Position numbers and translations under genes: made by a program. This document shows positions 2,591 through 4,284 of a stretch of DNA of 51,202 bases, piece by piece. The number at the start of each line of letters is the position of its first letter. Positions within the stretch are counted from its first letter, which is position 1. The notes under the pieces were generated by a model. The model had not been told where the DNA came from. It was given only the letters and a program-made list of their open reading frames with translations, and ran no database searches. Source of the stretch: an uncultured Pelagibacteraceae bacterium (GTDB lineage Bacteria > Pseudomonadota > Alphaproteobacteria > Pelagibacterales > Pelagibacteraceae); NCBI GenBank assembly GCA_902554315.1, contig CACDOF010000007.1:1-51202 (forward strand). The letters are read 5' to 3'.

Positions 2591-2621
2591 TGATTTTACT
2601 TAGCAAATATTTATCTTTTTT

Positions 2622-2647
2622 CTAGGCTTCTTTTGTAAGAAGCCTAG
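2622..2647. other. Perfect 11-bp inverted repeat between divergent genes
   Basis: CTAGGCTTCTT, loop TTGT, AAGAAGCCTAG. The stem is perfect. On the plus strand the T-run lies before the stem; on the minus strand an A-run follows it. It is therefore not a normal intrinsic terminator in either direction. It lies in the 5' region of both the thioredoxin-like gene and thiV, so it may be an operator or a leader hairpin. Confidence 0.5.
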
Positions 2648-2654
2648 ATTAACT

Positions 2655-2683
2655 TTGATAAGAGAGTCTTTTCTACTTATACC
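2655..2683 (+). promoter_or_regulatory. Candidate sigma-70 promoter for thiV
   Basis: TTGATA (2655-2660), 17 bases, then TATACC (2678-2683). A second -10-like TATAAT lies at 2708-2713 without a good -35. Either would give a leader of roughly 85-115 bases before the riboswitch. Chance matches are common in DNA this AT-rich, so this is only a candidate. Confidence 0.3.
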
Positions 2684-2792
2684 TATTAATACACCTGTAA
2701 GTAGTGTTATAATTGAATAATAGGTATGTAAAATTTAAATATTTCTAATATTAAAATATTTACAAAAAATTTTTTTTTGACTATTAATATTT

Positions 2793-2851
2793 AAGGGGTG
2801 CCAAATGGCTGAGATAAACCCTTAGAACCTGTCCGGTAATTCAGAAAGGGA
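2793..2851 (+). promoter_or_regulatory. TPP riboswitch (THI element), compact variant
   Basis: Hallmarks in order: GGGGTGCC (2795-2802), CTGAGA (2809-2814, the pyrimidine-binding loop), ACCC (2818-2821, pairs with GGGT to form P2), GAACCTG (2825-2831), loop TAAT (2837-2840), AGGGA (2847-2851). P3 is minimal (CC/GG with a 4-base loop). P5 (CCGG/TCAG) carries a C-A mismatch. The consensus CGU after P5 is replaced by two A's, so the pyrophosphate-side arm departs from consensus. The final AGGGA is both the end of the aptamer and the Shine-Dalgarno, ending two bases before the ATG at 2854. Control is therefore most simply at translation start, with no separate expression platform. Confidence 0.92.
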
Positions 2852-2853
2852 AA

Positions 2854-4284
2854 ATGGAACAAATAAATATATTAAGTCAATCATCGTCAGTAATGCTTAC
2901 ACTAGTTATAAGCATCGTATTTGTTGTTATTGGTTTGGTTTATTCTAAAAAATATCTTGGTTTAGATAATTATTTAGTTGCCAGTAGATCTATCGGAACT
3001 TTTTCATTAACAACTAGTTTTATTGCTTCTGCATTAGGTGCTTGGATATTGTTTGGACCAGCGTCAGCCGCTACTTGGGGAGGAATAGGAGCGGTTATAG
3101 GATATTCAATAGGTGCTGCATTCCCTCTTTTCGCATTAATTTATCTTGGAAAAAAATTTAGAAATACTTACCCAAAAGGAAAATCATTAATTGAAGTAAT
3201 AAGGCTTAGGTTTGGCTCAGATTTTTTCAAACTAGTTTTATTTTTGTCTATTTTTTATATGACTATTTTTTTGATAGCAGAGGTAACTGCAATATCAATT
3301 TTAATTAACTATATTTCGGGAACAGATCTATGGATTACTGCATCAATAATAATTGTAAGCTCTCTTATTTATACTTTGTATGGAGGTTTGAGAGCATCTA
3401 TTTTTACAGATAATATTCAATTTATAATTTTTGGATTATTGTTAATAATAGCTTTTTGGTATTTAATCTCATTTAATTCAAATGATTTTAATTTTGAATA
3501 TATTAATATTAATAAACCAAATTTACTAAGCGCAAGTTATATACCTAATTTTACAGCTGGATTAACTTTTTTTATTGCTGTAGCAGCCACAAATCTTTTT
3601 CATCAAGGTAATTGGCAAAGAGTTTATGCAGCAAAAAATGATAAAGTGTTAAAAAATAGCCTTATTATCTCTTTTATAATTATAATTCCAATTGTCTTTA
3701 TGATGGGTTTTTCAGGCTTAATTGCAGCATCTCAGAATTCTTCAATAATTCCTGATCTTGCCTTCTTTTCTTTATTGTTAAAAGATAACGCAGTTTTTTT
3801 ATCATTAATAATTGTTACATTAGCAATTTCATTGACAGTAAGCAGCATTGACACATTAGTTAATGCCATTTCAAGTTTAATTATTGTAGACGGAAATAAA
3901 GTTATAAAATTTAATGGAAATTATTTAAAATTATCTAAACAAATAATTATTATATTATCTGTGATATCATTTTTTATTGCATCAAAAGGTTTAAGTATTT
4001 TATATTTATTTTTGCTTGCTGATCTATTCTGTTGTGCGGCTGTATTAAGTGTATTTTATAGCTTCTATTCAAAGTCATTTAATGAAAAAAATGCCATTAT
4101 TTCGACTATAATTGGTTTAGTCGGTGGAATTCTATTATTTCCAAGCCCTGATTTTTCAAAATCACTTCTTGTAGGTATAATTTTTCCAACAGATTTTTTC
4201 CCAATATTAATTTCACAATCTCTATTATTTTGTTCATTTATAATAGCAACTTTTTTGCCTATATTATCTTGGAAACTAAAATGA
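2854..4284 (+). CDS. thiV: Solute:sodium symporter, thiamin-precursor transporter ThiV
   Basis: This is a 476-aa integral membrane protein of the solute:sodium symporter (SSS) family with about 12-13 hydrophobic segments. It starts immediately behind the TPP riboswitch, whose AGGGA serves as ribosome binding site. SAR11 bacteria are known to lack synthesis of the thiamin pyrimidine (HMP), and a riboswitch-controlled SSS protein, ThiV, is the proposed importer. Position and family here fit that gene. Expected substrate is HMP or a related pyrimidine, by analogy. Expression should fall when TPP is plentiful. The next gene, rseP, lies 44 bases downstream. Confidence 0.85.
   Translation: MEQINILSQSSSVMLTLVISIVFVVIGLVYSKKYLGLDNYLVASRSIGTFSLTTSFIASALGAWILFGPASAATWGGIGAVIGYSIGAAFPLFALIYLGKKFRNTYPKGKSLIEVIRLRFGSDFFKLVLFLSIFYMTIFLIAEVTAISILINYISGTDLWITASIIIVSSLIYTLYGGLRASIFTDNIQFIIFGLLLIIAFWYLISFNSNDFNFEYININKPNLLSASYIPNFTAGLTFFIAVAATNLFHQGNWQRVYAAKNDKVLKNSLIISFIIIIPIVFMMGFSGLIAASQNSSIIPDLAFFSLLLKDNAVFLSLIIVTLAISLTVSSIDTLVNAISSLIIVDGNKVIKFNGNYLKLSKQIIIILSVISFFIASKGLSILYLFLLADLFCCAAVLSVFYSFYSKSFNEKNAIISTIIGLVGGILLFPSPDFSKSLLVGIIFPTDFFPILISQSLLFCSFIIATFLPILSWKLK

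Follow-up and report, generated by a model that had tools for sequence, protein, structure and literature searches.

Loss of the pyrophosphate pocket in the TPP-type leader RNA of thiV across a SAR11 lineage

In a lineage of SAR11 bacteria, the leader RNA of thiV, a putative HMP importer gene, lacks the pocket assigned to the pyrophosphate of TPP and keeps the motif that binds the pyrimidine. We describe this leader in a window of 51,202 nucleotides, by which we mean the whole stretch of DNA that was analysed, from an uncultured Pelagibacteraceae bacterium (contig CACDOF010000007.1). When comparing the window to other genomes, we find that the loss of the pocket is real and lineage-wide and no quirk of the window. 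The reading that we favour, at a confidence slightly short of even, is that the remodelled thi-box RNA buries the ribosome site of thiV upon binding a pyrimidine ligand and leaves the pyrophosphate unread. Since the CG assigned to the beta-phosphate of TPP is gone, the ligand would most likely be HMP or its phosphates.

An Rfam scan of positions 2600–3000 (4227 models, E up to 1) returned TPP only (RF00059). The match covers 2784–2868 with 48.5 bits (E 1.2e-8 in 401 bases); it is the single thi-box match in the window's own genome (65% complete) and lies directly 5′ of thiV. An earlier reading of this DNA made from the sequence only had placed a TPP-type RNA upstream of a ThiV-like symporter reading frame (2854–4284), and this location is confirmed. 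The Rfam model that it proposed as a check does match, but the score stays under the curated gathering score of 54.3 bits. By folding energy alone, the leader does not stand out (z −0.77; 46 of 200 shuffles are equally stable). Further upstream, a terminator-like hairpin of 12 pairs (2621–2648; one found compared to a shuffle mean of 0.1) lies between the thiV leader and a divergent gene on the minus strand (2216–2590) that is thioredoxin-like by eye.

Low scores are common among the relatives of the window. With searches whose strict filters lose weak matches, TPP matches were found in 106/151 genomes of the genus (0/151 above the gathering score), 167/197 of the family (16 above the cut-off), 126/147 of the order (10 above) and 131/190 of the class (124 above). 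Three genus genomes that are 94–99% complete (G218, G311 and G336) gave no TPP match; their leader may be lost or fall below the filter. Glycine riboswitches of the same genomes scored above the Rfam cut-off in all 48 matches, which came from 19 of 21 genomes; the two genomes without any belong to f2, another family of the same order. We thus conclude that the low TPP score is specific to the thiV-type RNA. Genome streamlining as the sole cause was ruled out on the same grounds.

We read 252 leader entries, of which 226 are distinct when flanks are included. The window is represented twice, the second time by its copy L001, and the two count as a single distinct leader; L255–L280 lie outside the 226. 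The text pattern used for collecting demanded most of the pyrimidine core. It was failed by three of 255 entries: L186, which by eye is canonical, and two truncated by contig ends, namely L015 (broken off within the leader, with a remnant that shows a V1 arm) and L039 (which starts after the leader). According to their arm, the 226 distinct leaders are V1 (122, the window's type), V2 (28), V3 (7), V4 (8) or canonical (61), where canonical denotes every leader other than V1–V4, mostly of the form ACCU-GAU-P5-CGN-AGG. The pocketless leaders are those of types V1–V3 (157 distinct leaders), and all of them come from SAR11 (Pelagibacteraceae).

In 141 of the 252 entries, the V1 arm reads exactly AACCTGTCCGGTAATTCAGAAAGGG, and three V1 entries differ by one base; stem P3 with its loop and the flanking sequences are variable. 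With the window and L001 excluded, the identical 25-nt arm recurs in 139 of 250 other entries and is thus not a product of chance. It is present in 63/172 entries from the RNA search or its match list and in 76/78 from the search with ThiV proteins, two collections that overlap, so that some genomes are counted twice. The sequence-only reading had asked for an alignment to other SAR11 thiV leaders and would have given up a changed specificity if the window alone deviated. The altered arm turned out to be common to the 76 of 78 leaders found by protein search, and most of the genus leaders that were read carry it as well.

Pairing was assessed in an alignment (A1) of 112 of the 113 distinct V1–V3 aptamers, from which L219 was omitted. 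The parts of the window's leader and the gene that follows are listed here.

2795–2798, plus strand: P2 5′ strand, GGGG; invariant in 112/112 aligned leaders, with three pairs to 2819–2821 kept in 100% of the cells
2800–2802, plus strand: P3 5′ strand, GCC; covaries with 2807–2809 (second pair UA 64, CG 45, UG 2, other 1)
2807–2809, plus strand: P3 3′ strand, GGC; covaries with 2800–2802
2809–2814, plus strand: CTGAGA, the pyrimidine-binding J3/2 motif; in 165/165 V1–V4 leaders
2819–2821, plus strand: P2 3′ strand, CCC; pairing with the P2 5′ strand kept
2828–2830, plus strand: P4 5′ strand, CCU; from alignment and pairing counts
2831, plus strand: G, sole remnant of J4/5 (usually GAU in canonical leaders); opposite A in 83/84 distinct V1 aptamers
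2832–2835, plus strand: P5 5′ strand, UCCG; first pair UA 84, AU 26, GU 2 and never unpaired, second pair CG 106, UA 6
2836–2841, plus strand: L5 loop, GUAAUU; UAAU kept in 165/165 V1–V4 leaders
2842–2845, plus strand: P5 3′ strand, CAGA, with A2843 mismatched to C2834; third pair UA 13, unpaired 99/112
2846, plus strand: A, sole remnant of J5/4 (canonical leaders have CGN here, to which contact with the pyrophosphate is assigned)
2847–2849, plus strand: P4 3′ strand, AGG; from alignment and pairing counts
2845–2851, plus strand: Shine-Dalgarno AAAGGGA, overlapping the P4 3′ strand and ending two bases before the ATG at 2854
2854–4284, plus strand: thiV, sodium:solute symporter (SSF, PF00474, 75.2 bits) and putative HMP importer of the HQGN subfamily (HQGN at residues 250–253)

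Since covariation supports the pairing, the register of P5 is fixed as U2832–A2845, C2833–G2844, C2834 opposite A2843 and G2835–C2842. Outward from the loop, P5 reads GC, a C×A mismatch, CG and UA in V1; GC, C×A or UA, CG and AU or GU in V2; and GC, UA, UA and AU in V3. These changes track genera and thus amount to few events, with pairing preserved at each. MAFFT shifts the V3 rows by one in P4, so that P4 cells are misjudged there (five counted as unpaired). With the covariation register, P4 and P5 are separated by G2831 opposite A2846, compared to GAU opposite CGU in canonical leaders; G faces A in V1, and G or A in V2. Several details of the sequence-only reading are borne out, namely the intact CTGAGA pocket at 2809–2814, the P5 mismatch (C2834 opposite A2843) and the Shine-Dalgarno within the aptamer, where AAAGGGA (2845–2851) overlaps the P4 3′ strand. 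It had described J4/5 as one base short on the 5′ side; this side is indeed shortened, but the change is larger and turns a 3×3 loop into a 1×1 loop. Its 'AA' in place of CGU holds if P5 is given three pairs, whereas the covariation register leaves a single base on each side.

The loss is sharply confined. The CGN that precedes the P4 3′ strand (AGG) is found in 0/157 V1–V3 leaders compared to 61/61 canonical and 8/8 V4 leaders. As the 30 class loci that were read first were the best-scoring ones, which is a bias towards canonical arms, a check set of 20 class loci was taken from the lower end of the match list (all still above the cut-off); these weaker alphaproteobacterial leaders kept the CG in 20/20 cases. 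The 5′ side of J4/5 is shortened in three of these 20 (by eye) and also in V4. Judged by these comparisons, shortening of the 5′ side is ordinary and the loss of the 3′ CG is the specific change. In the available part of a study of E. coli and Arabidopsis structures (PMC6414600), the direct contacts to the beta-phosphate are made by C67 and the next base, G68, on the P4/P5 side; by our own mapping, these would be the CG that V1–V3 leaders have lost. The accessible text of PMC9544697 names two motifs, GCG for binding of the pyrophosphate and CUGAGA for binding of the pyrimidine.

The pyrimidine side is retained throughout. GGGGTG, CTGAGA and the loop sequence UAAU occur in 165/165 V1–V4 leaders, and the pyrimidine core is intact in 157/157 pocketless leaders and in 78/78 complete leaders found by protein search; the collecting pattern demanded most of this core, but only three entries failed it and none of these was both pocketless and complete. 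Furthermore, P1 was undetectable in V1, where the mean paired flank was 2.89 compared to 2.78 ± 0.10 with flanks permuted among loci, and in V2 (3.25 compared to 3.42 ± 0.25). It is present in canonical leaders (4.52 compared to 3.02 ± 0.14) and in V4 (4.25 compared to 3.59 ± 0.24); the V3 leaders are too similar to each other for this test. Among the features of RF00059, the window's type thus has P2/P3 with CUGAGA and a P4/P5 arm with a UNR loop L5, but it falls short of the gathering score, lacks the GCG internal loop and shows no detectable P1 closing stem. Because tests failed to find these hallmarks of the TPP class, we do not file the RNA as an ordinary TPP riboswitch but as a derived variant, whose ligand may differ from TPP.

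A wider spread of the altered arm was not supported. A non-exhaustive search with a pattern suited to V1 and V2 arms alone had hits in 4/385 genomes of the class, three from genus g1 and one (G414) without GGGG upstream, and in 3/398 genomes of the phylum, which are the window's genome and two that we judged from the matched letters alone to be chance. The 25-mer had no matches in viral contigs, and carriage by phages was rejected.

How might such an RNA act? It would have descended from a TPP riboswitch, losing P1 and the pyrophosphate half and keeping the pyrimidine half and L5. In V1, the weak P4–P5 arm with its conserved C–A mismatch would open in the absence of ligand, and the ribosome would bind AAAGGGA. 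Binding of a pyrimidine-bearing ligand at CTGAGA would close the arm, with AGG pairing to CCU, and translation of thiV would be switched off. If HMP or one of its phosphates is the ligand, the importer would be downregulated by the substrate that it takes up. The OFF logic is carried over from the riboswitch class, and we infer both that the ligand closes P4 in V1 and that the mismatch holds the arm open without it.

The geometry of the ribosome site agrees with direct translation attenuation as defined by Barrick and Breaker 2007 (PMC2258182), in whose accessible text TPP riboswitches are already described with the Shine-Dalgarno within the aptamer: the thiV leader shares the ribosome site in the aptamer core and a start within 15 nt. 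In V1–V4 leaders, the first ATG, GTG or TTG starts 1–7 nt after AGGG, most often 4. The V1 arm is predicted at −3.9 kcal/mol, compared to −6.2, −8.2 and −12.4 in three canonical arms. The predicted values are −6.3 for V2 arms, −11.0 for a natural V2 variant in which U–A replaces C–A, −6.9 for V3 and −7.5 for V4. The predicted openness of the Shine-Dalgarno has medians of 0.465 (V1), 0.401 (V4), 0.269 (canonical), 0.244 (V2) and 0.192 (V3). In these predictions, a weak, open arm is a trait of V1 only and the arms of V2 and V3 resemble canonical ones, so that the idea of a mismatch that holds the arm open fails to cover all pocketless leaders. A competing CUG/CAG hairpin, whose formation would release the Shine-Dalgarno, was rejected, as it reaches −0.8 compared to −3.9 kcal/mol for P4–P5 in V1 and −2.3 compared to −6.3 in V2.

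Next to the leaders, the transporters fall into two subfamilies. In a tree of 79 ThiV proteins (a quick method, with several long branches), the proteins after canonical and V4 leaders are separated from those after V1, V2 and V3 by one change, with an SH-aLRT of 100 at the split. All 149 readable ThiV proteins after V1–V3 carry F-HQGN-W (two V1 rows were unreadable), and all 15 after V4 and canonical leaders carry F-DQG[VI]-W. GPxEA occurs in 14/14 readable ThiV proteins after V4 or canonical leaders and in none after V1–V3. The contrast is thus between acidic motifs (GPxEA, F-DQG) and neutral or histidine motifs (GPx[STA]A, F-HQGN). Since each leader sits beside its gene and the subfamilies are divided by one split only, the link between leader type and ThiV subfamily is a correlation by descent. 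By analogy with related symporters, the F-HQGN/F-DQG and GPx residues would face the substrate. Thiamin is a cation and HMP is neutral, which makes it an attractive guess that the acidic form of the site takes thiamin and the neutral form HMP; a urea symporter, DUR3, also has an Asp aligned there. That a pyrimidine-only HMP riboswitch class arose from the TPP riboswitch by deletion of the pyrophosphate site and P1 and co-evolved with a ThiV site moving from a thiamin-like substrate to HMP is a proposal that we make tentatively, as possible but short of likely. At four loci of otherwise V1 or V2 genera (L082, L083 and L088 in g1; L135 in g4), a V4 leader precedes a ThiV of the DQG type, as though leader and gene had been exchanged together.

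A ThiV relative follows all 57 V1 leaders from RNA-search loci; the other 65 (122 in total) entered through the search with ThiV proteins and are uninformative on this point. The corresponding counts are 23/28 for V2, 7/7 for V3, 6/8 for V4 and 9/50 for canonical leaders with an ORF read. The remaining five V2 leaders (L136, L137, L140, L195 and L196, part of g2) precede proteins that share their first residues; the one after L136 is NMT1/THI5-like (PF09084; nearest solved chain 4nmy). This protein starts straight in the binding domain with no signal peptide evident by eye; binding of a pyrimidine precursor or synthesis of HMP-P would be possible functions. Two V4 leaders of g12 precede a TorF-family porin (matched by TIGR02001 after L122, putative after L130), a possible outer-membrane route for thiamin compounds. 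Canonical L113 precedes a short-chain dehydrogenase (above the cut-off of PRK08642, 3-oxoacyl-ACP reductase) and no obvious thiamin gene; the protein after L119 has a nearly identical start.

No thiC was found in the 22 genomes searched for it (20 of the window's family, two of f2). ThiE matches occur in 25/25 family genomes (16 above the curated cut-off) and in 0/2 of f2. Thiamin pyrophosphokinase shows the reverse distribution (2/2 in f2, 0/25 in the family), so that f2 can pyrophosphorylate imported thiamin, whereas a source of pyrimidine seems to be required by the window's family. Family f2 keeps the canonical pocket, and its one downstream protein that was scanned (L147) is ThiB-like (above the cut-off of TIGR01254, below that of TIGR01276). 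ThiL scored above the cut-off in 10/10 g1 genomes and 0/12 others, where only weaker, paralogue-like matches were seen; thiL does not track the pocket and was rejected as a driver. Ten genomes (from g2, g4, g5, g7, g9 and g12) have ThiE matches, with neither ThiL above the cut-off nor thiamin pyrophosphokinase found. A gap at the step from TMP to TPP is noted for subclade IIIa in the part of PMC10030771 available to us. The genera g7 and g9 lack thiC and ThiL and have a canonical pocket before a ThiV-like symporter; dependence on HMP thus does not force the loss of the pocket.

The shift of ligand that the sequence-only reading had suggested fits the data in part: loss of the CG with a kept pyrimidine core, across the lineage and together with one ThiV subfamily, is in line with an altered reading, with HMP as a putative ligand. 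Its other suggestion, a tolerated variant, agrees with 5′ shortening elsewhere, and a 3′ CG loss confined to V1–V3 speaks against it. This suggestion belongs to a serious rival, which we consider possible though on balance doubtful: the RNA may still sense TPP, with a rebuilt P4–P5 in which the mismatch and the nearby backbone hold the Mg-bound pyrophosphate, as a tolerated or compensated variant. Descent from a TPP riboswitch, an L5 and a pyrimidine core that are conserved throughout, and the tolerance of 5′ J4/5 shortening elsewhere (3/20, by eye) argue for it, and the authors of PMC11452348, in the text accessible to us, assume TPP. Two points count against HMP sensing, the first of them also in favour of a TPP sensor. 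With ThiL encoded in V1 genomes (10/10), feedback by TPP would be sensible. Phosphate-free ligands align and dock the arms of E. coli thiM poorly, according to the available part of PMC4775224, and the full conservation of L5 suggests that arm docking persists, perhaps with some phosphate contact. Against a TPP sensor stands the absence of the beta-phosphate CG from all 157 pocketless leaders, compared to its presence in 89/89 others (61 canonical, 8 V4 and 20 weaker alphaproteobacterial).

Two further explanations seem improbable to us. The RNA might sense no ligand, its conserved arm being an element of translation initiation or a protein site and the rest a relic. A constitutively expressed uptake system was inferred in PMC11452348, predicted diatom TPP aptamers were unresponsive in PMC9544697 (both as far as the accessible texts go), and the folding energy is weak (z −0.77). 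A relic is hard to reconcile with GGGGTG and CTGAGA kept in 165/165 V1–V4 leaders and with a P3 that varies with its pairing kept while the flanks diverge. About as improbable is thiamin monophosphate or free thiamin as the ligand, the pocket having shrunk since the product of ThiE, and not TPP, is the signal. This would suit the ThiE matches in 25/25 family genomes and the ten family genomes outside g1 without ThiL above the cut-off, in which TMP may be the last product of a known enzyme, thiamin pyrophosphokinase being found in 0/25 family genomes. It conflicts with the presence of ThiL in all 10 V1 genomes searched (all g1) and with g7 and g9, which lack ThiL and yet keep the canonical pocket.

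The element as such has been described before. Our match in HTCC1062 (G176:C1:786499-786587) coincides with the published intergenic region 786467–786574 before SAR11_0811, the thiV gene discussed in PMC11452348. In the available part of Meyer 2009 (PMC2704228), this same element, which has a V1 arm (L228), is called a TPP riboswitch with a note on the tendency to short RNAs, and we saw no mention there of a missing pocket. Compared to the E. coli thiM-type riboswitch (RF00059), the thiV leader shares P2, P3, the CTGAGA core, P4, P5, the UAAU loop and a thiamin-related target, but it has no detectable P1, a pocket reduced from 3×3 to 1×1, no beta-phosphate CG and a score below the gathering score. 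The HMP-PP riboswitch (thiS motif; PMC6478431, accessible text) would share a pyrimidine-precursor ligand if our reading is right, but it is embedded in a terminator and has a different architecture. We found no TPP aptamers without the pyrophosphate site in the accessible text of PMC2258182, unlike the thiV leader. In the literature searched, partly accessible as it was, no statement on the missing pyrophosphate site of the SAR11 thiV leader was found, which is not the same as absence from print.

If the loss of the pocket means HMP sensing, the thiV leader would provide a natural HMP switch of compact size and a clear example of a vitamin riboswitch that changed its ligand by deletion. If TPP is still bound, the textbook contacts to pyrophosphate would be dispensable. 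If the co-evolution of leader and ThiV holds true, an RNA and a transporter would have switched together in SAR11, which are among the most abundant bacteria of the ocean.
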